From Anaerolineae bacterium (GTDB lineage: Bacteria > Chloroflexota > Anaerolineae > Aggregatilineales > Phototrophicaceae): a stretch of 44,871 nt of DNA. The stretch is taken from positions 1 to 44,871 of the forward strand of contig JALHNB010000056.1 in assembly GCA_022843745.1 (NCBI GenBank), given 5' to 3'. The position numbers and the translations under genes were made by a program. The notes under the pieces are model-generated. The model searched no databases and had not been told where the DNA came from. It was given only the letters and a program-made list of their open reading frames with translations. Below, piece after piece: positions 29,439 through 43,944 of the stretch (the first letter of the stretch is position 1; each line of letters begins with the position of its first letter).

Positions 29439-29870
29439 GTGTCCGAGCAAAATAAATTAGAATCCATCGCAACCGAGGTTATTGAGACATTTGACATCAA
29501 AGCCCCGCCAATCCCAATCGAGAGTATGCTCCAGCATCCGAAACCGGATATGTGGCAGGAGGTCGATATTGCCAAATTATCCGGCGGCTTTTTAAGCGTA
29601 AAAGACATTTATTCGCCGCGAATGTCACTGGCGCGTTTGCTGGCTCGGCATATCGCCAGCAGCGAATGGGGTAAAACACACGAATTGCGGGAGATCGTGA
29701 AAAACGAAGATCAGATTTACGCCTTCGCCCGAATGTTGATTATGCCGATGGAAATGGTAAAAGCCCTCAGCAGCGGCGCACGCGCCCCAACAACGATGAG
29801 CTTTCATTTCGAAGTACCAGAAGAAGACGCGCGTTTACGCCTGATCGAATTAGCGAACTATTTGCGATGA
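29439..29870 (+). CDS. ImmA/IrrE-like protein with lost HEXXH
   Basis: 143 aa from GTG 29439, with AAGGA (29425-29429) 9 nt upstream. The order of helices resembles ImmA/IrrE (DUF955) metallopeptidases: an N-terminal VIETFDIKAPPIPIESML, then SPRMSLARLLARHIA where the HEXXH helix is expected, then DQIYAFARMLIMPMEMV, which matches the family's E-x-x-A-x-x-FA-x-x-LLMP-x-x-x-V block. In the expected HEXXH window the residues are R66-L-L-A-R70, so both His and the Glu are absent. It therefore looks like a catalytically dead relative, perhaps a regulator or binding partner. The stop region overlaps the convergent cca gene by 13 bp. Homology is inferred from pattern only. Confidence 0.55.
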   Translation: MSEQNKLESIATEVIETFDIKAPPIPIESMLQHPKPDMWQEVDIAKLSGGFLSVKDIYSPRMSLARLLARHIASSEWGKTHELREIVKNEDQIYAFARMLIMPMEMVKALSSGARAPTTMSFHFEVPEEDARLRLIELANYLR

Positions 29871-31327
29871 TTTCCGTCAAGATGCGCTCTGGCAATCTGT
29901 AATGCATCTTCGACGGTTCGTGCTTCGCCCGTAGCCTGAGCCTCGCGAATGCGCTCGATCAATTGACCGATGATCGGCCCTGGATTTAACTGAAGCGCTT
30001 GCATCAGTTGATTCCCGTCCAGCAGCGGGGTCGGCTCAACAATTTCATGATAGCGCTCAAAATATGCTTCAAATAAGATACGGATACGCTCTACCATGAT
30101 AAGCCATTCGGCCTGATTCAGTTCGCTGCCAGCCGCCCCAAGATATTCGGCTGTTGCCAGGAGACAGGCATCGATTCCGGCTGCACCTGTCTGCCACCAG
30201 AAGCGATGAATTTCCAACGCAGTCGCGTTCACCATCAGCAGCGGACGCATATAATTGCGAAGGATCGCGACTAAACGTTGCTTTTCGCCATTGCTCAGGT
30301 GGAGCGAGTCGGCGCGTTCCCCAGCTATTTTCGCGCCAGCGGCTTCACCCCCAGGCTGTATTTTGCCAATGTCGTGCAGCAGAGCCGCCAAAATCAGGAT
30401 TGTTTGATGCGGGCGTTCGTTCGGCCAGCGGGTATCAATATGGGCATTCAGTCGCGCTCGAAACGGGCTTAACTGCATCACCAGCATCCCTAATCCAAAC
30501 GAAGCGGCGGTATTATCAGAACGTGCCGGGCTGATGGCTTGTATCAGATTGGACAGCGCCTCAACGACCATCAAGGTATGCTGCCAGCTATCTTCAATTT
30601 TTCCTTGTGGCAGGCCATGCAGCGGTACAATTTCCGGGATAATTTCCGACAAAAAACCTAATGTATCCGCGACCCGCAGCGCCGAAGACGGTTTCGGCAC
30701 GGTCATCAGACGTACGAACTCGTCGCGGACACGTTCCTGAGACGATTCCCCCAGACGATCTTTTGCTGCACGAACATCCAGCAGGGTTTCCGCGTCGATT
30801 TTCATCCCAAGCTGAACACTCTGGCGCACAGCTCTTAACGCACGAATCGGGTCTGAGGCAACAGCAGATGACGCACACCGTCGAATCCGCTTATCTTGCA
30901 GATCGCGTTCGCCGCCAAGCGGGTCAATTAAAAGACTCAAGTCGCTGCGCAGATCGACAGCCATCGCGTTAATCGTAAAATCGCGATCTGACAGGTCAGC
31001 GAGAAGACCGTCACCCCGGAAACGCGCGACATCAATCGTAAGGCGACCATCAGCCGTCTCAACCAGGGCGCGTCCGACATCACGCTCGGAATCAAGCGCA
31101 AAAAAATCGCCGCGCAGATGGTTCGCGATTCGTCGCGCCAGCGCGATCCCCCCACTTTCGACAGCCAGATCGAGGTCTTTTAGTGGTTTCCCCAACAGAG
31201 CATCACGCACAGCGCCGCCGACAATATAAACGGGCAGCGCTGAATCGCTCAACCAATCGGCGAGGTCAAGAACAGCATCCGGCCAAATCAGCGGTCTATA
31301 TGGCTCACGCGGAGTCAGATCACTCAT
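29858..31327 (-). CDS. cca: CCA tRNA nucleotidyltransferase / poly(A) polymerase family protein with HD domain
   Basis: 489 aa. Adds or repairs the 3' CCA of tRNA. The polymerase head shows IVGGAVRDALLGKPLKDLDL (35-54), with D51 and D53 as catalytic metal ligands, then DFTINAMAVDL (116-126) and the base-selecting region up to about 220. A C-terminal HD domain follows (ALLHDIGK, H318-D319), typical of class II CCA enzymes with 2',3'-phosphodiesterase or phosphatase activity. Whether it makes full CCA, only CC or A, or poly(A) tails cannot be read from sequence, since split CC- and A-adding enzymes occur. It overlaps hpt by 8 bp and is probably in one unit with it. Confidence 0.88.
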   Translation of the reverse strand: MSDLTPREPYRPLIWPDAVLDLADWLSDSALPVYIVGGAVRDALLGKPLKDLDLAVESGGIALARRIANHLRGDFFALDSERDVGRALVETADGRLTIDVARFRGDGLLADLSDRDFTINAMAVDLRSDLSLLIDPLGGERDLQDKRIRRCASSAVASDPIRALRAVRQSVQLGMKIDAETLLDVRAAKDRLGESSQERVRDEFVRLMTVPKPSSALRVADTLGFLSEIIPEIVPLHGLPQGKIEDSWQHTLMVVEALSNLIQAISPARSDNTAASFGLGMLVMQLSPFRARLNAHIDTRWPNERPHQTILILAALLHDIGKIQPGGEAAGAKIAGERADSLHLSNGEKQRLVAILRNYMRPLLMVNATALEIHRFWWQTGAAGIDACLLATAEYLGAAGSELNQAEWLIMVERIRILFEAYFERYHEIVEPTPLLDGNQLMQALQLNPGPIIGQLIERIREAQATGEARTVEDALQIARAHLDGNHRK

Positions 31328-31880
31328 GCTTTAGCGCATCCAGGCTGACCACACCAATAAATGGCAGATTGCGGAATTTGTCGTCCAGGTCAAGCCCATA
31401 GCCAAAGACAAATTTGTCCTCGATCTGGAAGCCGGTGTAATCAACTGGGATTGGCACGGTGCGCCGCGAGGCTTTATCCAGAAGGGTACAAAGTTTCAGG
31501 CTTGCAGGCTTACGGGCTTCCAGCATATCCATCACAAATCGCAGCGTGTTACCGCTGTCAATAATGTCTTCCACAATCAAGATATGGCGATCACGAACCT
31601 GTACGCTCAAGTCCATTTCGATGCGGACGTTACCCGACGATTCACGTACCCCTTTGCCATAGCTCGAAATCGCCAGGAAGTCGATCTCGTGTGGTGTATC
31701 AATATGGCGCATCAAATCGGTCAAAAACATGACACCCCCTTTGAGGACGCAGATCAGGAGGAGATCGTCAAAAGCAGCATAATCATCTGAAATTTGCTGT
31801 CCAAGCTCAATGACACGTTTTTGGAGGGTCGATTCGTCAATCAGAATTTCTTGAAGATATTTTTCATAGGCGAGTGCCAT
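31320..31880 (-). CDS. hpt: Hypoxanthine phosphoribosyltransferase
   Basis: 186 aa. Salvages hypoxanthine and guanine to IMP and GMP with PRPP in the cytosol. The PRPP loop is VEDIIDSGNTL (103-113), with the acidic pair E104-D105; an N-terminal lid with LICVLKGGVMFLTDL (41-55) and the flexible loop around SSYGKGVRESSGNVRIE (72-88) match bacterial HPRTs. It overlaps cca by 8 bp. The FHA gene lies 63 bp upstream on the same strand without a clear terminator between, so the order FHA-hpt-cca may be one transcript. Confidence 0.92.
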   Translation of the reverse strand: MALAYEKYLQEILIDESTLQKRVIELGQQISDDYAAFDDLLLICVLKGGVMFLTDLMRHIDTPHEIDFLAISSYGKGVRESSGNVRIEMDLSVQVRDRHILIVEDIIDSGNTLRFVMDMLEARKPASLKLCTLLDKASRRTVPIPVDYTGFQIEDKFVFGYGLDLDDKFRNLPFIGVVSLDALKHE

Positions 31881-31943
31881 AGGGAGATGTCCTTACGAAG
31901 TGAAATACAGCTAAAGCTCAGGCACACGCGGATGATAACGCGA

Positions 31944-32450
31944 TTATCCAAACATGATCTGAACCGCGAGTCGTCCGAGAATAAATTCATCCCCTCGGCG
32001 AAGTATCTGCGGCTGATTGGGGGTCAGGCGTTCACCTTTAAAAAATGAACCATTGGTGCTGCCCAGGTCGATGATATACAGATGTCCGTCTTTGAATTCA
32101 AGCCGGGCGTGTTCGCGCGAAACCCCACGTTCCGATGCGCCAAAGCGTGTCAGGTCGATATTCGGGCGGGTGGTGCTTTTATGATCGGCGCGTCCCAGTG
32201 TAATTGAAAGGTTGTCCTTCAGATAAATCTGCTCGGTCATCCCCCGGATAATCAAAATGATCTCGTGTTCGGGTGTTGACGACAGGATGTCATCCTGATG
32301 CGCGGCATCGGCGAGACGACGGAGTCGGCTTGCTCCACCCGTCAGAATCAAAGTATCTGTTCCCGGAGATGACAGCGCGTTATCTTCGTCATGTGGCTGG
32401 AGTGGTGCAGTTTGTCCCAGATCAGAATCAGGTTGATCGTTCATTTTCAT
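31944..32450 (-). CDS. FHA-domain protein
   Basis: 168 aa. The C-terminal FHA domain (about 75-165) contains the phosphothreonine-binding core: ITLGRADHKST, then SERGVSREHARLEF with the conserved Ser-Arg-x-His, and IIDLGSTNGSF. The N-terminal 70 residues are acidic, polar and low in hydrophobic content (NDQPDSDLGQTAPLQPHDED), likely a flexible tail that could itself carry phosphorylation sites. FHA proteins read phosphothreonine and usually work with Ser/Thr kinases; no kinase lies in the window. A TATAAT box serves its promoter. Confidence 0.85.
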   Translation of the reverse strand: MKMNDQPDSDLGQTAPLQPHDEDNALSSPGTDTLILTGGASRLRRLADAAHQDDILSSTPEHEIILIIRGMTEQIYLKDNLSITLGRADHKSTTRPNIDLTRFGASERGVSREHARLEFKDGHLYIIDLGSTNGSFFKGERLTPNQPQILRRGDEFILGRLAVQIMFG

Positions 32451-32459
32451 TACAATTGG

Positions 32460-32511
32460 TTGTAAACTTGCAGATTACGTTCATTATAGCATTGTTTATG
32501 CCCTTACCAAA
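32460..32511. promoter_or_regulatory. Overlapping divergent promoters with a shared -10 core
   Basis: On the minus strand TTTGGT (32511-32506) and TATAAT (32488-32483) are 17 bp apart, ahead of the FHA gene. On the plus strand TTGTAA (32460-32465) and ATTATA (32483-32488) are 17 bp apart, ahead of the kinase gene. The -10 core is the same six base pairs read in both directions, so transcription in one direction should hinder the other. Confidence 0.45.
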
Positions 32512-32516
32512 GCATT

Positions 32517-34241
32517 ATGGTCACATTAATCAGCATCTCATCCCCACGTACCACAGTTTGTGTCACATTTCCCGATGGCCTGGTGCTGGAAGGGCCTATC
32601 GGTTCAACGGTTGAATCTTTCCTCATCGCCGCACAGCAGCACAGGCCAGAACAGCACAGCAGTACCCTGATGGGTGGGATTCTCGATGGCAGGCTGCGCG
32701 AATTATCCTATCCGATTGTGCAGGATGCAGTATTAGATTCGGTTTCGCTTTCCAGCAGTGACGGTGGCCGCATTTACCGTCGATCTCTGGCGATGCTGCT
32801 GGCAACCGCAATTGAGGAATTGTGGCCGGGTCAAAAAGTAACCGTTAATTATGCCGTTCCCGATGGTGGTTTCTATTGCAGACTTTTGCATCACCCACCA
32901 CTCGATTCTAATGAACTGGCGCGGCTCGAAAATCATATGCGTCAGATCGTCGCTGACAATGACCCGATTACCAAACGTGTTGTTCCATTGGACGAGGCGA
33001 CTGAGCTTTTTCGAGCGCGTCATGACGAAGACAAAGTACGCCTGCTGGAACAGCGCACCCGTAATGAACTGACCCTCTACACGCTGCGTGGGCGTGATGA
33101 CTATTATTACGGTTATATGGTTCCGTCAACGGGTTATCTTCAGGTATTCCGTCTCATGAGAGCCGATGGCGGCTTTATACTGCAATATCCACGCAAAGAA
33201 AATCCAACGATTCTGGGCGACCTGGCGGCAGCGGGAAAATTGACGCGCGTTTTTCAGGAAGCTGATGACTGGCTGCAACGCATGGAAATCGAAGACATCG
33301 GCAGCCTGAACCGCGCGGTGCGTGAAGACCGTGTGGCAGAACTCATTCTGGTGGCGGAAGCCCTCCACGAGCAGCGCATCGCCTATATCGCTCGCGAAAT
33401 TTACGATAAACACCAGACACAAGGTGTGCGATTGGTGCTGATTGCCGGGCCGACATCCTCCGGCAAAACGACATTTTCCAAGCGGCTGGCGATTCAACTC
33501 CTGGCGCATGGGCTGCGTCCATTCACGCTGGAACTCGACAATTATTTTGTCAACCGCGACCTGACACCCAAAGACAAAAATGGCGATTACGATTTTGAAG
33601 CGCTGCGGGCGGTAAATCTGGCGCTTTTCAACGAACACCTGCTCAGATTGATTGGTGGTGAGGAAGTACGGCTACCGCTTTTCGACTTTGTGCATGGCCT
33701 GAGTCTGGAAGGCGTGTTGGCGCGTCTGCGTGAAAATCAGATCATTATTGTTGAGGGGATTCACGGCCTGAATCCCTCGCTGGTGCCGGATATTCCCCCC
33801 AACGTCATTTATCGCGTCTACGTTTCGGCGCTCACCCAGCTTAATATCGACTCGCATAACCGTGTACCAACCACCGATGTGCGTCTGCTGCGTCGCATCG
33901 TTCGTGATGCCGCGCACCGGGGCAACTCGGCAACCGCTACCCTGCTGCGCTGGGAAAGTGTGCGCCGGGGCGAAAAGCTGAATATTTTCCCGTATCAGGA
34001 AAATGCCGATGCGATGTTTAATTCCGCGCTGATGTACGAACTGGCGGCGCTTCGGGCTTTGGCAGAGCCGCTGCTGCTCCAGGTAACACCCGCTACCCCG
34101 CCGCATATTGAGGCCAACCGCCTCTTGTCATTTTTGCGCTGGGTGCAGCCGCTTTCGCCCGATCAGGAAGCAATGATCCCGGACACGTCACTGCTGCGCG
34201 AATTTATCGGCGGCTCGATCTTGCAGGATTATCGTCCCTGA
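32517..34241 (+). CDS. udk: TGS-domain nucleoside (uridine) kinase family protein
   Basis: 574 aa in two parts. The N-terminal half (about 12-200) resembles the TGS and second-additional domains of ThrRS (VTFPDGLVLEGPIGSTVESF ...). The C-terminal half is a P-loop uridine kinase: Walker A G311-PTSSGKTT, then LDNYFVNRD, LPLFDF, the IIIVEGIHGL block and the RRIVRDAAHRG region used to bind the nucleoside. Such enzymes phosphorylate uridine and related nucleosides, but the physiological substrate of TGS-containing versions is uncertain, and ThrRS relation gives no clue to RNA binding. It is divergent from the FHA gene with a 66-bp gap and convergent with the next gene (8-bp gap). Confidence 0.88.
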   Translation: MVTLISISSPRTTVCVTFPDGLVLEGPIGSTVESFLIAAQQHRPEQHSSTLMGGILDGRLRELSYPIVQDAVLDSVSLSSSDGGRIYRRSLAMLLATAIEELWPGQKVTVNYAVPDGGFYCRLLHHPPLDSNELARLENHMRQIVADNDPITKRVVPLDEATELFRARHDEDKVRLLEQRTRNELTLYTLRGRDDYYYGYMVPSTGYLQVFRLMRADGGFILQYPRKENPTILGDLAAAGKLTRVFQEADDWLQRMEIEDIGSLNRAVREDRVAELILVAEALHEQRIAYIAREIYDKHQTQGVRLVLIAGPTSSGKTTFSKRLAIQLLAHGLRPFTLELDNYFVNRDLTPKDKNGDYDFEALRAVNLALFNEHLLRLIGGEEVRLPLFDFVHGLSLEGVLARLRENQIIIVEGIHGLNPSLVPDIPPNVIYRVYVSALTQLNIDSHNRVPTTDVRLLRRIVRDAAHRGNSATATLLRWESVRRGEKLNIFPYQENADAMFNSALMYELAALRALAEPLLLQVTPATPPHIEANRLLSFLRWVQPLSPDQEAMIPDTSLLREFIGGSILQDYRP

Positions 34242-36270: not shown

Positions 36271-37869
36271 ATGGGTCACAAACTCGCCATTGATCTGGGT
36301 ACAACCAATACCGTCATCGCCCGTTGGGATGAAAGCGCCGCGCAGCCTGAAGTCGTTCGCATTCCGGGGCTGACAATTGCCGATGATGGGCGACCAGCGC
36401 TTGTACCGTCGCTGATTTACGTCCAGGACGGCAAAACAGGCAGCGTGAATATCGGCCAGGTCATCCGTGATAAAGGTTTGGATCGACAAACAGATAATCG
36501 TTTATTTCGCAATTTCAAACGCGGCATTGTCTCCGCACCCGCACCCGACCCACGCCTCATTGATGATGTTTTATGGGGCGACAAGGACGCAGGACGCAGC
36601 TTTGTCCGCACACTGATCGAAGCGATGCCTTACAAAAAAGATGATATTGACCAGCTTGTCCTCACCGCCCCCGTCGCCTCATTCGAGGGCTATCTGGCGT
36701 GGCTTAACGAAGTGATGGACGAACTGGCAGCCGAAAAAATCCGCATCGTGGACGAATCGACGGCGGCGGCTCTGGGCTATGCTGTCACCAAGCCCGGCGC
36801 GGTGGTGCTGGTGTTCGATTTTGGCGGCGGGACACTGGATTTATCGCTGGTACAGCTCCCGGAAAGCCGCGAAAAAACAGGCGGTATCCTGCGCTGGCTG
36901 CTCAAATCCAACGCGAACCAGCATTCCGCCAAAGTCATCGCAAAAGCCGGACGCATTATTGGCGGCAGTGATGTCGATCAATGGATGCTGGCGGACGTAT
37001 TGAAGCGCACGAACCTGACGACGCAAAACCTTGGCAGTGATTATCCGCGCTTGTTGACAGCCTGTGAACACGCAAAAATCGCGCTTTCCACTGAGGAAAC
37101 AGTGAATATTTCGTTTGGTGCAGGCGGCAAAACCTATGATGTGGTTTATACCCGTGATGAGCTTGAAGCGCTGCTCGATACGAATGGCTTTTTCAGTGCT
37201 TTGCGTCGTGTCGTCGATAAAGTCATGCACGTTGCCCGTCAGCGCGGTATTTTTAAAGAGGATATTCACTATGTGTTGATGGTCGGCGGCACATCGCTCA
37301 TGCCTTCTGTACAGGAAGCACTAGGGCTATATTTTACCGATATGGCCGTCCGCGCCGATAAGCCATTTACCGCCGTTGCGGAGGGTGCGTTACAAGTCGC
37401 GGCAGGCTTTGGCCTGGAAGATTATCTCGTTCACAGCTATGGCATCCGCCATCTCGACCCCGAAAGCGGCACACACGAGTACGACGAGATTATTCCAATG
37501 GGAAGCGGCTATCCGACACCAGCGCCGATTGAAGTTGTGCTGGGATCAGCGCATGACAATCAGGAATCGATTGAATTTGTGATCGGCGAAATCGACTCGG
37601 ATGCCGTCTCGATGATCGAAGTACAATACGAAAATGGGCAAGCGGTTTTCGTCGCTCAAGGCAACACCAGCGCACAGCAGATCATCCCACTCAACGAAGA
37701 AGGCGCACTCAATATCCTGGCGAAACTCGATCCCAAAGGCAAACCCGGCGAAGAACGCATCAAAGCGCAGTTCAGCATTGATGACCGCCGCCGTTTACGC
37801 CTGACCGTTACCGACCTGAAAACCAATAAACAACTGCTCAATGATGCGGTTGTCGCTACACTACGTTAG
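36271..37869 (+). CDS. Hsp70-family protein lacking the helical lid
   Basis: 532 aa, shorter than DnaK (about 610-640). The nucleotide-binding domain is complete: AIDLGTTNT (6-14), K83 in FRNFKRG at the DnaK catalytic-Lys position, DESTAAALGY (161-170), VFDFGGGTLDLSLV (181-194) and VLMVGGTSLMP (335-345). A beta-rich region follows (about 400-530) with QVSM/VQYENGQAVFVAQGN-like strands and ends without the alpha-helical lid and without an EEVD tail. The DnaK-type interdomain linker DLLLLD is not evident. So it should bind and hydrolyse ATP, but client trapping must differ from DnaK. AGGATAAAC precedes the ATG by a proper distance. It is followed at 8 bp by a HEAT-repeat gene. Confidence 0.88.
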   Translation: MGHKLAIDLGTTNTVIARWDESAAQPEVVRIPGLTIADDGRPALVPSLIYVQDGKTGSVNIGQVIRDKGLDRQTDNRLFRNFKRGIVSAPAPDPRLIDDVLWGDKDAGRSFVRTLIEAMPYKKDDIDQLVLTAPVASFEGYLAWLNEVMDELAAEKIRIVDESTAAALGYAVTKPGAVVLVFDFGGGTLDLSLVQLPESREKTGGILRWLLKSNANQHSAKVIAKAGRIIGGSDVDQWMLADVLKRTNLTTQNLGSDYPRLLTACEHAKIALSTEETVNISFGAGGKTYDVVYTRDELEALLDTNGFFSALRRVVDKVMHVARQRGIFKEDIHYVLMVGGTSLMPSVQEALGLYFTDMAVRADKPFTAVAEGALQVAAGFGLEDYLVHSYGIRHLDPESGTHEYDEIIPMGSGYPTPAPIEVVLGSAHDNQESIEFVIGEIDSDAVSMIEVQYENGQAVFVAQGNTSAQQIIPLNEEGALNILAKLDPKGKPGEERIKAQFSIDDRRRLRLTVTDLKTNKQLLNDAVVATLR

Positions 37870-37877
37870 GGGGTTTG

Positions 37878-39011
37878 ATGACCACAACAATCACCGGACG
37901 TGAACCACGCCTGGCATCTGGCACTGGCAAACAAGGACTGCGGCGGTTGTCGCTGCGCCGACTAGCGACGATGATTAACGTCCTGCCACCAGAAGCCATC
38001 TCGCTCGATGCTGCCGCCGAGATGCTGCGCAACGATGAATTTTTCGTGCGTTACAACGCCGCCAAAATGCTCGGACGGCGTGGAGATCGCGATGCCCGCA
38101 TGATTATGCAGGAGGCGCTGACCAATGGCGAACCGCCTTCGCGTGCCAGCGTCGCCCGCCATCTTTATGGCTTTTCGTGGTTTGCCGCCGAGCCACTCAT
38201 CAAACTGGCGCTCAAGGATAAAGATGCGCGTGTGCGTGAAGGCGCGATTTATGCCCTGTGTGATCTGCGCGAACTCAACGCCTACCAATTGCTGGTTGAG
38301 GCCCTGGCCAACGAAGTGGACGATGTGCGTTCAGCCGCCGCGTGGGGATTGCGCGATTGTCAGGACCCGGCAGCCGTCCCCGTGCTTCAGGTCGTCCTCA
38401 AGGCGCAAGACCCTGATGTGCGGATCAAAGCCTTAGAAGCATTAGGCGCGAATGACACGCCGGAAGCCATGCCCGTCGTCCGCAATGCGATGAACGACCC
38501 CGAACCGGATGTCAAATATGCGGCGACTCTCAGCCTGCTCGAACTAGCGGGCGAACAGTGGTTGCAGGAACTTTCGGGCATCATCGGGCGCACCAGCGGT
38601 GTCACGCTTCAACAAGTGCTGCGCGGATTCTTCCACGCCAGCAATTACCTGAAAATTGACATCGCCAAAAGCAAAACCGCCGACATGATGATCGACGCGC
38701 TGGAAACCGCCCTGCTGGATGATATGCCAGCCACACGTATGGCGGTGATCTGGCCGCTGGCGTGGATGCGCCACGAACGCACCCCAACGATCCTGCGGCA
38801 GGCTTATCGGCGCGAACGTGATGCGGATGTTAAAGCGCAAATGGTGCGTATCGCGACCAGCCTGATGGCCGAAAACACGGGCGCAGGCAGCGCTGTAAAT
38901 GTCGCACAGGAAATCTTGCAGGATGCGCTGCAAAGCAAAGATGAGCATGTGCGCCAGGTCGCCGAAGACATTGCTAAACGCTCAAAAGCATCGCCTGCGG
39001 CAGCGAGTTAA
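37878..39011 (+). CDS. HEAT-repeat protein paired with Hsp70
   Basis: 377 aa from ATG 37878 (AGGGGG at 37868-37873); TTG 37875 is an alternative. From about residue 25 to 260 there are HEAT (PBS-lyase-like) repeats, recognisable in AEMLRNDEFFVRYNAAKMLG, DARVREGAIYALCDL, DDVRSAAAWGLRD and DPDVRIKALEALGAN. The last third is also helical but more irregular. No catalytic domain or signal peptide. It starts 8 bp after the Hsp70 stop, so the two are one unit. In eukaryotes armadillo/HEAT proteins such as HspBP1 and Fes1 are exchange factors for Hsp70; a bacterial analogue here is an inference. It is also possible that the pair forms a scaffold-type unit with clients of its own. Confidence 0.8.
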   Translation: MTTTITGREPRLASGTGKQGLRRLSLRRLATMINVLPPEAISLDAAAEMLRNDEFFVRYNAAKMLGRRGDRDARMIMQEALTNGEPPSRASVARHLYGFSWFAAEPLIKLALKDKDARVREGAIYALCDLRELNAYQLLVEALANEVDDVRSAAAWGLRDCQDPAAVPVLQVVLKAQDPDVRIKALEALGANDTPEAMPVVRNAMNDPEPDVKYAATLSLLELAGEQWLQELSGIIGRTSGVTLQQVLRGFFHASNYLKIDIAKSKTADMMIDALETALLDDMPATRMAVIWPLAWMRHERTPTILRQAYRRERDADVKAQMVRIATSLMAENTGAGSAVNVAQEILQDALQSKDEHVRQVAEDIAKRSKASPAAAS

Positions 39012-39074: not shown

Positions 39075-40007
39075 ATGAACAGACGATGGATAGCAATCAC
39101 AGTCACTTTGATACTTTGTATGTTAGCAGCCTGCGCCTCGCAAAATGCCGCGCCAGAATTATCGTTAGTGTCGGGAACTGTCAATGAACCCGCGGGGGCA
39201 TTTGACCAGAGATCAGGGGAACAGCAAGGACAATCAGGCTATTATGCCGTAAATGAAGAAATCGCCGATGGGCAACAACCGAATGCGCCGCCTGAAGACC
39301 TGCTGCGTGTGATCCTCAAAAACGCATCGGTGAATATCACCGTCAATGATTCAACCGCCAAAGTTGCTGAAATTACCGCGATGGCCGAGGCAATGGGCGG
39401 CTGGGTCGTGTCGTCGAACAGCTACAGCAGCACCAATCATGCAGGCGAGCCTGTGACCTATGGCAGCATCACCGTTCGTGTTCCTGCCGAACGCCTGCAT
39501 GAGGCGATTGAGCGCATCAAAACCGATGTCATTTCAGTTGAGTCGGAAAGCATCAATGGGCAGGATGTCACGCAGGAATATGTTGATCTTTCCAGCCAAC
39601 TGACCAATTTGCAGGCCACCGAACGCCAGCTTCAGACGGTGATGGAGACTGCCCGCAGAGTCGAAGATGTCCTGGCTGTCCAGCGCGAATTGACCAATGT
39701 TCAGGGGCAGATTGAAGTTATCCAGGGCAGACTCAAATATTTTGATGAAGCGTCTACATTTTCGTCCATTCAAATTGAGATCAGGCCACCCATCCCCGGC
39801 GTTGTGGAAGCCCAGAATGCAGCCTGGAATCCTGGCGAAACTGTCGAAAACGCGCTGAGTGTTTTGCTCGGTGTGACGCAGTTTGTCGTTGACTCCGCCA
39901 TCACGATCATTATTGTGGGACTGCCATTTGTGCTGGTGATCGGCATTCCAGTGTGGCTGATCTGGCGTCGTCGCCGTATGATACGGTCATCGCAGCCAGC
40001 GACCTAA
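39075..40007 (+). CDS. DUF4349 lipoprotein
   Basis: 310 aa from ATG 39075, with AAAGGAG 7 nt upstream. A lipoprotein signal peptide ends in the lipobox LAAC with Cys20. The DUF4349 domain (about 70-250) reads LLRVILKNASVNITVNDSTA, then MAEAMGGWVVSSN, SITVRVPAERLHEAIERI, then a coiled-coil (LTNLQATERQLQTVMETARR, VQRELTNVQGQIEVIQGRL). A membrane segment follows near the C-terminus (about 282-302) and a basic end (WRRRRMI), so the protein is anchored by lipid at the N-terminus and by a helix at the C-terminus. DUF4349 proteins are uncharacterised. It follows the HEAT gene by 63 bp on the same strand and overlaps the convergent gene by 4 bp at its end. Confidence 0.85.
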   Translation: MNRRWIAITVTLILCMLAACASQNAAPELSLVSGTVNEPAGAFDQRSGEQQGQSGYYAVNEEIADGQQPNAPPEDLLRVILKNASVNITVNDSTAKVAEITAMAEAMGGWVVSSNSYSSTNHAGEPVTYGSITVRVPAERLHEAIERIKTDVISVESESINGQDVTQEYVDLSSQLTNLQATERQLQTVMETARRVEDVLAVQRELTNVQGQIEVIQGRLKYFDEASTFSSIQIEIRPPIPGVVEAQNAAWNPGETVENALSVLLGVTQFVVDSAITIIIVGLPFVLVIGIPVWLIWRRRRMIRSSQPAT

Positions 40008-41920
40008 AATCGCAGGGCATAAACAACGCCCTTCTCACCCTGGAATAAAAGCTGCAAGTCCAGCGCGGCCAATTCGTCAGACGATATCATCGTATCGTTT
40101 GGAATCAACAAAACCATAGGCCGTGCTGGATCGACTTGAAGAAACTCAGCAATTAAGTTTTCACGCTCGTCACTTGAGGTTCCATCCGCATAAAAAGCCT
40201 TCACGCGTTCAGCCCGCTGTGTGTAGTCCGATACGCCCGTGACAAAGCTGAAAAGCCGTCTCCCAGCATACGGCAGTCGTCCACTAATGGATGCAAGCAA
40301 CGCCGACTGTTCGACTGGCATCACCACAATTGTCCAATTGTTTGTCATCTCTCGCAGCCAGACATAAATATCCTGATAAATCTCTCGCTCGCTCACAATA
40401 TTCTGCCCATCATAGACAATTTTATTGATATTCTGGCTGGTAGAAACGATCCCCTGCTGCAACTCGACGGCATTTTTAATGCGTATCAAATCCGCATAGA
40501 TTAGATTCCCGATCACCAGCACGAAGACAACACCTGCAACCGCCTTCCGAAATAGAGAACCGTGATCGATCAAACGATGAATAACTGGCACAATCGTCAA
40601 GCAAATGAGAAATGACGACAGCAGCACAAATTTATATTGATTATCGCCGCGCAGTACCGAGATATAGGCCACACCACAGCCCAGAATTGCGCCAAAAGCT
40701 GTAAATATCAACAGACGATTCGACGTTTTGACAGCGTAAATGATGCCAACGATAAAAAAAGGAACGAGCGGATAGAATGCGCTAATTAACATCCCCAGAT
40801 TGGGCAAATCCGTTAACGATAAGCTGCCTGTCACACCATATGAGTTCGTCGTCTGGCGATAATAGGTCAGGCTGAGAAACGCAATAGATAGACTCAGCAC
40901 AATCAGAAATCCCAAATCCAGACGTGATAGTTTTATTTCGAATGTCTGATAGAGCGATGCAGCACGAGATCGAAAAGATTTTATGGGTGTGCGCACAAAG
41001 TCAAAACTATATGCCAGCATTATCGCCGGAAGCAGCACGATAATTGAAAATAATCCAGTGCCCAGGCTAAAGGCGATCCCTCCCGCCAGTGAAAACAAAA
41101 ACAGAATCATCAGGCTGGGGCGAATATAACCTTTGACCAATTGGACTGCCGCAAAAATACCCGCGACATAGTAAACCAGCGCCAGTGGAAAACTGGTAAA
41201 TGCCAGAAACTTGAACCATAAAGTCTGAATACGATCACCGATAAGAATCATATCTGCATCGTTCAGGCCGCCGATACCCCTGGCAAGAATATCGTCCAAA
41301 GCGTGAATTATTCCAAACAGGTTGATGCCAAAGACGACGAAAATCACCAGTAAATTAAATAAAAAGGGGTGCAGATGACCATAGCCAACTGCGCGAATAA
41401 TTTGCTTAACCCAGGCAAAAATGCTGATCAATGCCAACAGATTGAGAATGGAGGATAGCAGCGGCGGCGAAAGCTGAGTCAAGTTTGCAATCGTTGCCAG
41501 CAGTGCATGATACAGCCAATAATAATTCGGAGGATAACCGGGAAGGAATGGATTTTCCGGCGGCGCGATACCAGCAAGGATCTGGCTGGTATAACTGGTA
41601 TGAAGAACACCCTCGAAAAGCATCTGATAATAAGTGTTTGAAAAAACGATCAAAAAGCCGGGCACAAAAACCAGATAGGGGATACAGCCGATCCATTGAT
41701 CGCGCCAAGTGTGCTTCGGATTGAAGTCAATACCCCGTAAAAAATCTGGCTTTTTGACAATAAAAAAAGCCGCGCACAGCACTAAGCTCAGAGCGAAAAT
41801 CAGACCCCATATTTCAATGCTGGGTGATGTCACTAACGTCACGATAAATCCGATACCAACAAAAACAACCGGAAATATCACGATAAATGGATTCAGCACA
41901 CCATAGAAAAATCGCCGCAT
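40004..41920 (-). CDS. Polytopic membrane protein, GT-C-like (paralogue A)
   Basis: 638 aa with about 12-13 hydrophobic segments. A loop after the first pair of spans carries PPENPFLPGYPPNYYWLYHA, with acidic and Tyr-rich positions like those of multi-span proteins of the DUF2298/GT-C kind. The C-terminal 150 residues are a soluble extracytoplasmic domain (NNWTIVVMPVEQSALLA, PARPMVLLIPNDTMISSDEL). Close paralogue of the broken copy at 42011-43944; the two are in direct tandem. Function unknown: a lipid-linked sugar or polymer transferase is the best guess. It converges with the DUF4349 gene with a 4-bp overlap. The region just upstream of its ATG (GTTTCATGCG on the minus strand) is shared with its twin. 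Confidence 0.7.
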   Translation of the reverse strand: MRRFFYGVLNPFIVIFPVVFVGIGFIVTLVTSPSIEIWGLIFALSLVLCAAFFIVKKPDFLRGIDFNPKHTWRDQWIGCIPYLVFVPGFLIVFSNTYYQMLFEGVLHTSYTSQILAGIAPPENPFLPGYPPNYYWLYHALLATIANLTQLSPPLLSSILNLLALISIFAWVKQIIRAVGYGHLHPFLFNLLVIFVVFGINLFGIIHALDDILARGIGGLNDADMILIGDRIQTLWFKFLAFTSFPLALVYYVAGIFAAVQLVKGYIRPSLMILFLFSLAGGIAFSLGTGLFSIIVLLPAIMLAYSFDFVRTPIKSFRSRAASLYQTFEIKLSRLDLGFLIVLSLSIAFLSLTYYRQTTNSYGVTGSLSLTDLPNLGMLISAFYPLVPFFIVGIIYAVKTSNRLLIFTAFGAILGCGVAYISVLRGDNQYKFVLLSSFLICLTIVPVIHRLIDHGSLFRKAVAGVVFVLVIGNLIYADLIRIKNAVELQQGIVSTSQNINKIVYDGQNIVSEREIYQDIYVWLREMTNNWTIVVMPVEQSALLASISGRLPYAGRRLFSFVTGVSDYTQRAERVKAFYADGTSSDERENLIAEFLQVDPARPMVLLIPNDTMISSDELAALDLQLLFQGEKGVVYALRF

Positions 41921-42010: not shown

Positions 42011-43132
42011 TTAACCATCGAATCGAAGGCCAAATGCATCGCCCTTTTCGCCTCGGAACAAAAGTGGCAAATTCAGCGCGGTCAATTGGTCAGACGGCAT
42101 CATCATATCGTGTGGAATTAACAAAATCATAGGCCGTGTTGGATCGAATTCAAGCAATTCAGCAATAATCTGCCGGCGATCATCGAAGCTGGTTTCAGGG
42201 GCAAAAAAAGTCTCAATCTGGTTCACGCGCACAGGATATTCAGGCACTCTTTTCACAAAAATGTACCGATCTGCTCCGGCATAGGGTAAACGAGCGCTAA
42301 TCATCGCCAGCCGGGACGAATGCGCAACTGGCATGACAACCACTGTGCGGGCAGGAGTCGATTCTCTCAACCATTCATAAACATCCTGATAGGGTTCTAT
42401 GCCACTGACAAGGTATCGCCCGTCATAGGTAATTTGATGGGTGTTTACAAGCCCTGCGTTCAAATCAAGAGCTTCTTTTATCCGCGTCGCCCCTGCATAG
42501 CTGACATTTAGTAAGGTCAACACGAGTAAAATTCCAGCCACACCCTTACCTAAGCGCTGATAAGTTGGGTTTTGAATACGATAGCTCAGATTATGAATAA
42601 TGGGAATGATCGTGAGGCAGATGAGAAAAGACGAGAGATGTATAAATTTGTACTGGTTATTGCCCCGCAGAACGGCCACATAAGAAATACCACACCCTAA
42701 AACTGCCGCCAGTCCCGTAAATAACATGGCGCGATTGCGGCTTTTAACTGCATAAATGAGTGCGACGACAAAAAACGGGAAAATGGGATAATACGTACTG
42801 AGGAGACTCTGAAGGTTTCGCTGGCTCGTGAGCGAAAAACTCCCTGTGATTTGATAGGATGCTGTCGCGCCGACATAGTATTTCCCCATCAGGAAAGCAG
42901 TTGCGATCCCCAATATTCCAAGCCACAATAACTCTGTTTTTGCAATATGTTCTCGAATAGCACGATAACCAACGCTTATCCGTGCAACGAGAAAATTGAA
43001 CCGGAGAGGCCTTATGGTGAGCAGTTCGCAAACAAGATACGCCCCGATCATTGCCGCAGGCAGCACAGTCACACTAAAGATGCCTGTACCCAGATTAAAC
43101 TCGACACCTCCCGCAATTGCAATTAGCATCAA
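42011..43132 (-). pseudogene. C-terminal part of the broken paralogue B
   Basis: 373 aa of open frame, from a TTG-ATG at 43132 with no Shine-Dalgarno. It corresponds to the second half of paralogue A, including the C-terminal soluble domain (RTVVVMPVAHSSRLAMISAR; PTRPMILLIPHDMMMPSDQL). In this frame coding sequence continues upstream through VYIRSSFLALMLIAIAGG, which lines up with GYIRPSLMILFLFSLAGG of paralogue A, so the true junction with the N-terminal half is at about 43157, in a different frame. The translated length of both halves together would equal that of paralogue A. Either a disrupted gene or an assembly error. Confidence 0.7.
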
Positions 43133-43134
43133 CG

Positions 43135-43944
43135 CTAAAAAACTGCTTCGAATATAAACTGAATTGAGGCAAAAATCCCCATCAGATAGTAAACGAGGGT
43201 TAATGGGAAACTATTAAAGGCGAGGAATTTAAACCAAAGGCTTCGCAGACGGCTGTCGCCCATCAGGATCATGTCACGGCTGATGTTGGTGCCAACACCA
43301 CCTGATAGAATGTCATCGGCAGCGTGAATAATGCCAAAAATATTCAGCCCAAACACCACGAAGATCACCATCAAATTAACGAGGAGTGGATGCTTATCCC
43401 CGTAACCTAGCGCACGAATGATTTGTTTTGTCCAGGCAAAGATACAGATGAGCGCCATGACGTTCAGCAGCGAGGAAATCAACGGTGGCGCGAGGTTGGT
43501 GACGTTGGCGAAAGTTGCGATCAGCGCGTGGTATAGCCAATAATAATTGGGTGGATAACCCGGTAAAAAAGGATTTTCCGGTGGGGTTGTCCCGACCAGG
43601 ATTTCATTGATATAGCTGGTATGGATATCGCCGTCAAAAACCATCTGAAAATGTGTATCGGAGAAAACAACCACCAACGCCGGGACAAAAATCAGATAAG
43701 GCGCGTAGCCAAGCCACCGATCCATTCGGCGGAAATGCGATACTTCTAAGTCTATCTCAAGCGAAAAATTCGGCTTTTTGATGGCGAAAAAGGCTGTACA
43801 AATAAGAAAACAGGCTGCAAAAGTCAGGCTCCATAACTCAATACTGACGGATGTAAACAACGATAGCCCGAACCCGACTCCAATGAAAACTGCCAGAAAT
43901 ATCGCAATGAACGGATTGGCTACATTGTAAAAAAACCATCGCAT
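43135..43944 (-). pseudogene. N-terminal part of the broken paralogue B
   Basis: 269 aa with the first six or seven spans and the loop motif PPENPFLPGYPPNYYWLYHA, identical to that of paralogue A. The frame follows paralogue A to GIFASIQ and then runs into a premature stop after IFEAVF. Relative to paralogue A about 10 nt are missing after the Gln codon (QLVKGYIR in A against Q, two bases, YIR here), which shifts the reading frame. The N-terminal half alone would lack the whole soluble domain. Start supported by GTTTC-ATG shared with its twin. Confidence 0.75.

Follow-up and report, generated by a model that had tools for sequence, protein, structure and literature searches.

A lid-less Hsp70 encoded beside a HEAT-repeat protein in Anaerolineae, with a conserved N-terminal peptide as its possible ligand

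Hsp70 chaperones are known for their promiscuity, and HSPA14 is the animal counterpart of the fungal Hsp70 Ssz1. The systems closest to the one described here are the fungal ribosome-associated complex (RAC) of Ssz1 and Zuo1, and the exchange factors of the HspBP1/Fes1 type. According to one report, Ssz1, an Hsp70 without a lid, holds the LP-motif from the N-terminus of Zuo1 in its substrate-binding domain (SBD) as a pseudo-substrate, Ssz1 binds ATP and cannot hydrolyse it, and Fes1 has a flexible N-terminus that imitates substrate, a property combined with exchange activity (PMC7083937). We have analysed a 44,871-nucleotide stretch of DNA from an Anaerolineae bacterium (contig JALHNB010000056.1, positions 1 to 44,871; hereafter the window), whose genome (G000) is a 7.96-Mb draft that is 98.6% complete. 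In the window, a gene for a lid-less Hsp70 is followed by a gene for a HEAT-repeat protein, and near the N-terminus of the latter lies a short peptide with the general motif T-G-x-E-P-x-L, which we call the tag. Among the papers listed by our searches of the openly licensed literature, none resembles the pair or the tag; a paper on conflict systems that mentions Hsp70, HEAT repeats and Chloroflexi deals with neighbourhoods centred on GTPases that include HSP70 and GrpE, and its accessible part describes neither the present operon nor the tag (PMC7159879). Against the PADLOC defence-system models, the window Hsp70 has no match at E 0.001, the HEAT protein matches parts of two large models, and an AAA protein of the relatives described below matches IetA models over part of its length. 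The features under study are as follows.

36271..37869, + strand: Hsp70 family protein, 532 amino acids (open reading frame (ORF) list; Pfam HSP70, PF00012, E 4.8e-26; DnaK alignment; model), with the ATPase domain at about residues 1-380, the linker region DYLVHSY, SBD-beta at about residues 389-530 and no helical lid
37273..37305, + strand: codons for VLMVGGTSLMP (residues 335-345), holding an ATP-site GG pair (alignment to the genome's own DnaKs)
37420..37440, + strand: codons for DYLVHSY (residues 384-390), at the site of the DnaK linker DILLLDV (alignment)
37435..37866, + strand: SBD-beta (about residues 389-530) to the last codon, with no lid coding sequence after it (alignment, model)
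37878..39011, + strand: HEAT-repeat partner, 377 amino acids from ATG 37878 or 378 from TTG 37875 (ORF list, Pfam HEAT_2)
37893..37913, + strand: codons for the tag T-G-R-E-P-R-L, HEAT residues 6-12 (conservation; pattern match in its own genome)

By alignment and predicted model, the first protein is a member of the Hsp70 superfamily, with an actin-like ATPase domain bearing the phosphate motifs and catalytic residues, followed by an SBD-beta. It shares these two folds with canonical DnaK and differs from it in having no lid, a shortened subdomain IB and the linker DYLVHSY in place of DILLLDV. Residues 121-519 align to DnaK as far as the end of SBD-beta, where the chain stops at the last strand, and the DnaK lid (SBD-alpha) is faced almost entirely by gaps. 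In the alignment the protein has equivalents of all of DnaK D8, T11, T12, K70, E171, D194 and T199 and of the GG pairs; among the Hsp70s of 53 relatives, D8, K70 and T199 are each found in 51 and the other ATP-site positions in 49 to 53. The initial annotation had spoken of a full ATPase domain, which is right for the ATP-site residues but not for subdomain IB, where about 20 residues after K70 are gone relative to the genome's own DnaKs. These are the other two Hsp70 matches of the genome, frames of 638 and 639 amino acids that, read from the start, are full-length DnaKs of 633 and 627 amino acids, and they are 29-31% identical to the window Hsp70 over the aligned part. Both end in EFTEA. A C-terminal EEVD is a feature of eukaryotic cytosolic Hsp70s, and because the full-length DnaKs also lack it, its absence from the window protein, correctly pointed out in the initial annotation, is uninformative.

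An AlphaFold model of the Hsp70 alone (18-row alignment) is mediocre, with a mean predicted local distance difference test score (pLDDT) of 67.5 and part of the SBD below 50, and we regard it as adequate for the fold and inadequate for the pocket. Past residue 388 the model has twelve strands, a single four-residue helix (476-479) and no terminal helices, so that model and DnaK alignment both bear out the earlier claim of an Hsp70 that ends after a beta-rich region without a helical lid. Residues 1-530 of the model match a DnaK deletion mutant without SBD-alpha (5obu; Z 32.5, 441 residues aligned) with a root-mean-square deviation (rmsd) of 11.4 that probably reflects a differing domain arrangement or poor prediction. 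The model also matches the ATPase domain of Ssz1 (Z 32.5, 338 aligned, rmsd 3.1), and Z is about 32-33 against Hsp70 ATPase domains.

The second gene begins with an ATG at 37878, 8 bases past the Hsp70 stop codon, and its product matches Pfam HEAT_2 (E 3.4e-34, 117.4 bits), with HEAT_PBS also over its cut-off, so that a HEAT-repeat gene does follow at the spacing first reported. The match to Pfam Arm, at 20.4 bits, falls just below its cut-off of 20.6. No J domain is listed by Pfam for this protein at E 0.1, and the matches over cut-off are all to HEAT-type repeats. The locus thus resembles RAC in its lid-less Hsp70 and in a partner with a short N-terminal motif containing P and L, and differs from it in being bacterial, in having a HEAT protein rather than a J-domain protein as the partner, and in keeping the ATP-site residues, Ssz1 being non-hydrolysing according to the report noted above (PMC7083937). 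The likeness is likely to be one of convergence, not of membership.

We compared the locus with a first set of 19 relatives, all from Anaerolineae, Chloroflexi or taxa within them, one being from Aggregatilineales and one from Phototrophicales. Of the 18 loci for which the 3′ side is present, 17 have a HEAT orthologue directly downstream in the same orientation, the 19th locus being cut inside the Hsp70 gene; in locus L033 the HEAT gene after the Hsp70 runs off the contig. A census of 154 genomes of the order (thresholds E 1e-40 for the Hsp70 and E 1e-20 for the HEAT protein) found the Hsp70 in 46 and the HEAT protein in 43, with both in 36, the Hsp70 only in 10, the HEAT protein only in 7 and neither in 101 (Fisher p 4e-19, ignoring shared ancestry); many of these genomes are draft or incomplete, and an absence may be incompleteness. 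Pairing of the two genes exceeds chance. The pair is adjacent by coordinates on one contig and strand in 34 of the 36 genomes with both genes, and in G432 it is split by contig ends. Two of the 34, G455 and G485, encode the Hsp70 and HEAT parts as one fused polypeptide (loci L086, 923 amino acids, and L119, 919 amino acids). On the Hsp70 tree, from which locus L045 was left out and in which the label 'pair' takes in genome G440, whose two genes are separate, and genome G493, which lacks the HEAT gene, two changes to fusion are counted, and well-supported branches require only one. Eight of the ten Hsp70-only genomes are from families f91 and f95 and have the larger operon described below, and in G496 the locus is cut by a contig end. 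Three of the seven HEAT-only genomes (G424, G466, G478) have the HEAT gene near a contig end, and the other four have HEAT proteins of low similarity, in three of which a divergent Hsp70 adjoins the HEAT gene (L100, L112 and L113, that of L113 being cut by the contig start). Linkage across relatives, set beforehand in the initial annotation as one test of its idea, therefore survived with few exceptions.

The HEAT proteins begin with a short variable stretch, followed by the tag. The 41 HEAT loci include 39 with a scored N-terminus, of which 36 match [ST]G.EP.[LMI]; in one further scored locus, of G425, the tag reads TRREPSL, and L036 (G483; also L117), outside the scored set, has TGREPRL. For this scoring and for the ORF counts given below, 16 loci of the first set that repeat genomes were left out, and G419 and G544 count as two loci each. 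Conservation by position was taken from 38 sequences, with the window added and with L109 (a fragment) and the divergent, tag-less L100, L112 and L113 left out: E9, P10 and L12 are identical in all 38 (0 bits), and the neighbouring positions 13-20 are highly variable, averaging 2.6 bits. Both fusions retain the tag, at what is then an internal position (SGREPVL and SGCEPAL), as does G440 (L088), whose two genes are apart; this speaks against an explanation at the nucleotide level or by a signal peptide. At the DNA level, the strict pattern [ST]G.EP.L..G has no match in the window genome or in G407. A TGREP-type pattern, which fixes R or S at one place, allows some other first residues and misses the TRREPSL tag of G425, has 30 matches in six genomes, of which only those in five HEAT genes, one 80-amino-acid ORF and one 55-amino-acid ORF place the motif within 50 residues of the ORF start; because so few sit near ORF starts, we claim no further tagged proteins in these genomes.

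The tag also occurs on other proteins, in the larger operons of families f91 and f95, whose Hsp70 is 45-48% identical to that of the window. Where the contigs reach, this Hsp70 gene is preceded by genes for an AAA ATPase, DUF1257, DUF2997 and a GrpE-like protein, and it is followed by genes of the HEAT, response-regulator-HEAT, FGE-domain and radical-SAM-like kinds. The GrpE matches are over the Pfam cut-off in L090 (E 6e-8) and L093 (2e-7) and below it in L094 (3e-5) and L091 (0.008), and the radical-SAM match in the f91 operons is below cut-off. Partners that are not orthologous to the window HEAT protein carry the tag at the N-terminus, often doubled: by sequence pattern it is present in 10 of 29 downstream ORFs, as against 1 of the 57 other ORFs of the same eight loci and none of 526 ORFs in other loci (HEAT orthologues excluded). 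The strict pattern has 4 matches in G442 and 10 in G550, the reversed pattern none, and 13 of these 14 fall among the first 50 residues of their ORFs and belong to nine distinct proteins. Pfam places eight of the nine as six HEAT proteins, one response-regulator-HEAT protein and one FGE-domain protein (L137 being judged through a close relative in L091, and L139 falling outside the eight); the FGE-domain protein and a 179-amino-acid protein with no Pfam match carry the tag without having HEAT repeats. The response-regulator partner hints at signalling.

These operons belong with the GrpE-Hsp70-DUF1257-DUF2997-AAA clusters found in f91 and f95 and, in part, in family f5 of the class and on the Pseudanabaena galeata plasmid pPg_01, which have the same short type of Hsp70 (about 31-48% identity) and repeat-protein neighbours; the window version, unlike them, consists of the Hsp70 and HEAT genes only. 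None of 57 pair loci, a number that includes duplicates as some genomes are represented twice, has a match to the AAA, DUF1257, DUF2997, GrpE-like or radical-SAM proteins (tblastn, E 1e-5). DUF1257 and the AAA protein of the larger operon are absent from all 20 whole pair genomes and present in all four f91/f95 genomes tested. Among 15 genomes searched, the GrpE-like protein is found at E <1e-70 only in G442, G550 and G439, and the ten pair genomes among the 15 have no match or weak ones. FGE does occur outside the larger version to some extent, as FGE matches lie beside the pair in 2 of the 57 loci (L113, L122); L133 has a weak response-regulator-HEAT match. Of the parts of the larger operon that were searched for, the Hsp70 alone always remains with a tagged protein in the two-gene form. 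As a separate observation, the protein encoded just downstream of the divergent pair in L113 (2726-4267) is 513 amino acids long and by Pfam has a TIR and an FGE-sulfatase domain.

We tentatively propose that the two genes encode a dedicated Hsp70-HEAT complex in which, on the pattern of Ssz1-Zuo1, the substrate domain without a lid receives the tag; we hold this to be quite possible, while stopping short of calling it probable. The lid-less Hsp70 would then act with a scaffold and not as a general folding chaperone. The N-terminal peptide would be a built-in ligand of its open SBD-beta, a role that we propose because of the precedents of the Zuo1 LP-motif on Ssz1 and of the Fes1 N-terminus. 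The RAC core with its pseudo-substrate (6sr6) is also, at rank 50, among the fold matches of an AlphaFold model in which Hsp70 and HEAT protein are joined. Binding and hydrolysis of ATP would switch the grip of the Hsp70 on the tag on and off, and the HEAT solenoid, in contact with the Hsp70 as platform or client rather than as exchange factor, may be put in place, maintained in an active conformation or passed to a target.

Several observations weigh against such a complex. L045 has a 516-amino-acid Hsp70 ORF with no HEAT gene downstream, the two genes of G440 are truly apart on two long contigs, and G493, the remaining Hsp70-only genome, is a real exception with no HEAT orthologue. The three divergent HEAT proteins of L100, L112 and L113 have no tag, those of L100 and L112 reading SYAPALA and TYAPILA where it would be, and that of L113 having an N-terminus without it, though in the tag scoring it was counted as lacking its N-terminus. 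In the window genome the TGREP-type pattern, with six matches, is no commoner than its reversed control, also with six. When the Hsp70 and HEAT protein of L037 were joined by reading through one stop codon, the AlphaFold model (28-row alignment) had a predicted template modelling score of 0.43, the tag and linker (residues 534-566) had pLDDT <50 with a disordered joint, and there was no confident placement of the domains relative to each other; the model speaks neither for nor against contact, including the contact near the nucleotide domain that the initial annotation had named as its other test. In a comparison of few lineages, the residues of the SBD-beta pocket do not clearly track the type of tag: a [YW]-[DE]-E arch is present in most pair and f91 rows (exceptions L100, L112 and L094) and absent from G112, f5 and the cyanobacterial row. 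Finally, the tag might have a different receptor, either the HEAT solenoid or some other protein.

That last point leads to the alternative that fares best, namely that the tag serves as an address of another kind, such as for HEAT-HEAT assembly, a membrane or envelope target, or a protease or modifying enzyme, with the Hsp70 merely aiding the folding of the HEAT protein. Tagged HEAT and FGE-domain proteins of G442 and G550 do lie on contigs away from the Hsp70 locus, the f91 operons contain radical-SAM-like and FGE-domain genes, and the joined AlphaFold model provides no structural evidence tying the tag to SBD-beta. The tag is nevertheless kept in pair loci although radical-SAM matches are absent from all 57 of these and FGE matches from 55; its conservation at an internal position in the two fusions argues against a cleaved or N-terminal-only signal, and a receptor in cis confined to HEAT proteins fails to explain its presence on the FGE-domain and 179-amino-acid proteins. 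We consider an address of this kind rather unlikely.

The initial annotation had suggested that the HEAT protein might be the exchange factor of this Hsp70, by analogy with the armadillo-repeat HspBP1/Fes1, or else a client platform. As an exchange factor it could release substrate through its flexible N-terminus, as in Fes1, and an alpha-solenoid with a flexible N-terminal peptide is indeed the Fes1 layout (PMC7083937). The absence of a GrpE-like gene from all 57 pair loci would fit a role that had passed to the HEAT protein; in the window genome GrpE is represented only by a weak match (E 0.001, contig C3 at 60088) just before a DnaK match (C3 at 60739). The retention of D8, K70 and T199 in most of the Hsp70s also speaks for exchange. 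Less easily accommodated are two divergent loci, L100 (2816-4117) and L112 (3152-4456), which encode Hsp70-like proteins of 433-434 amino acids with an SBD-beta-like C-terminus and an adjoining HEAT gene, and in which D8, T11, K70, both GG pairs and T199 do not appear, the alignment being unsure at such divergence. They group with the pair-type Hsp70s of G440, G541 and G547 (Shimodaira-Hasegawa-like approximate likelihood ratio test 97) on a very long branch of 5.5 changes per column with an odd letter make-up. If read correctly, this loss of the ATP site with the HEAT gene retained argues against accelerated ADP release as the function that has been kept, and it sets the pair apart from HspBP1/Fes1; the repeat type separates them less clearly, the window protein having HEAT_2 and HEAT_PBS matches over cut-off and Arm just under. 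Moreover, HEAT partners and a GrpE-like protein coexist in the larger operons, and what the partners have in common is a terminal peptide, not a fold. An exchange role is thus weakened and in our judgement unlikely, and of the two earlier suggestions it is the dedicated partner or client platform that fits. That the pairing reflects nothing more than common descent of a stable gene neighbourhood, without physical interaction, is very improbable. Upstream genes of the PRK/uridine-kinase-like, FHA, HPRT and CCA-adding-enzyme-like kinds do share in the conservation (the kinase in 11 of 19 loci), but seven loci whose flanks at hand show no such neighbourhood still have the pair (L046, L047, L095, L098, L115, L130, L131), there are two fusions, and the two genes are absent together across the order.

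In more distant relatives, other terminal peptides accompany the same type of Hsp70. In G112, of the same class, the gene order (L056, 2738-9712) is HEAT, HEAT, GrpE-like, Hsp70, pentapeptide, pentapeptide, all four repeat proteins begin with a PGIG or PGMG peptide, and DUF1257 and AAA have no match. In G216, G104 and pPg_01 the Hsp70 is accompanied by DUF1257 and AAA, and the WD40- or HEAT/WD40-type partners have a common C-terminal peptide of the type FDI...EFDI. On pPg_01 (L191, 8456-16613 and upstream) genes for GrpE, the short Hsp70, DUF1257, an ATP-binding protein, DUF2997, AAA and a WD40 protein are clustered. Three upstream repeat proteins of this plasmid share the C-terminus QFDIDIEDVSS.VQFSEFDIEIDG Judged by eye from few loci, repeat proteins of unlike kinds near this Hsp70 type appear time and again to have a terminal peptide in common, with differing letters: N-terminal PGIG/PGMG in G112, and C-terminal FDI...[EG][FY]DI types in f5 and Pseudanabaena. 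We offer, more doubtfully than the complex itself, the possibility of a bacterial Hsp70 class, with or without a GrpE-like protein, that has exchanged promiscuous client binding for the reading of an encoded tag, a terminal peptide on repeat and signalling proteins whose core, P-x-[LIM], in many cases has G, A or S after it. The window would be its minimum of one chaperone and one client, and f91 its version of one chaperone and many clients, with tagged proteins on several contigs.

The surroundings of the pair in the window include two further groups of genes.

29858-34241: CCA-adding-enzyme-like, HPRT, FHA protein and PRK/uridine-kinase-like genes, upstream of the pair (CCA-adding and HPRT named by eye)
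39081-40007: DUF4349 gene, after the HEAT gene (Pfam)

A relative of the DUF4349 gene likewise follows the HEAT gene in L032 and L101. Further on, two adjacent ORFs of 373 and 269 amino acids in different frames (42011-43944) resemble, on inspection by eye, a divided copy of the 638-amino-acid membrane protein encoded nearby at 40004-41920.

If the proposed complex is real, it would be a convergent counterpart of Ssz1-Zuo1 and of Fes1, and a compact two-protein system for studying the purpose of the Hsp70 lid. Thanks to the tag, a short peptide (TITGREPRLASG) would suffice for a direct test of the idea. For a family of chaperones noted for its promiscuity, a conserved, transferable recognition peptide on the partners would, if true, constitute a natural example of a sequence-specific chaperone.

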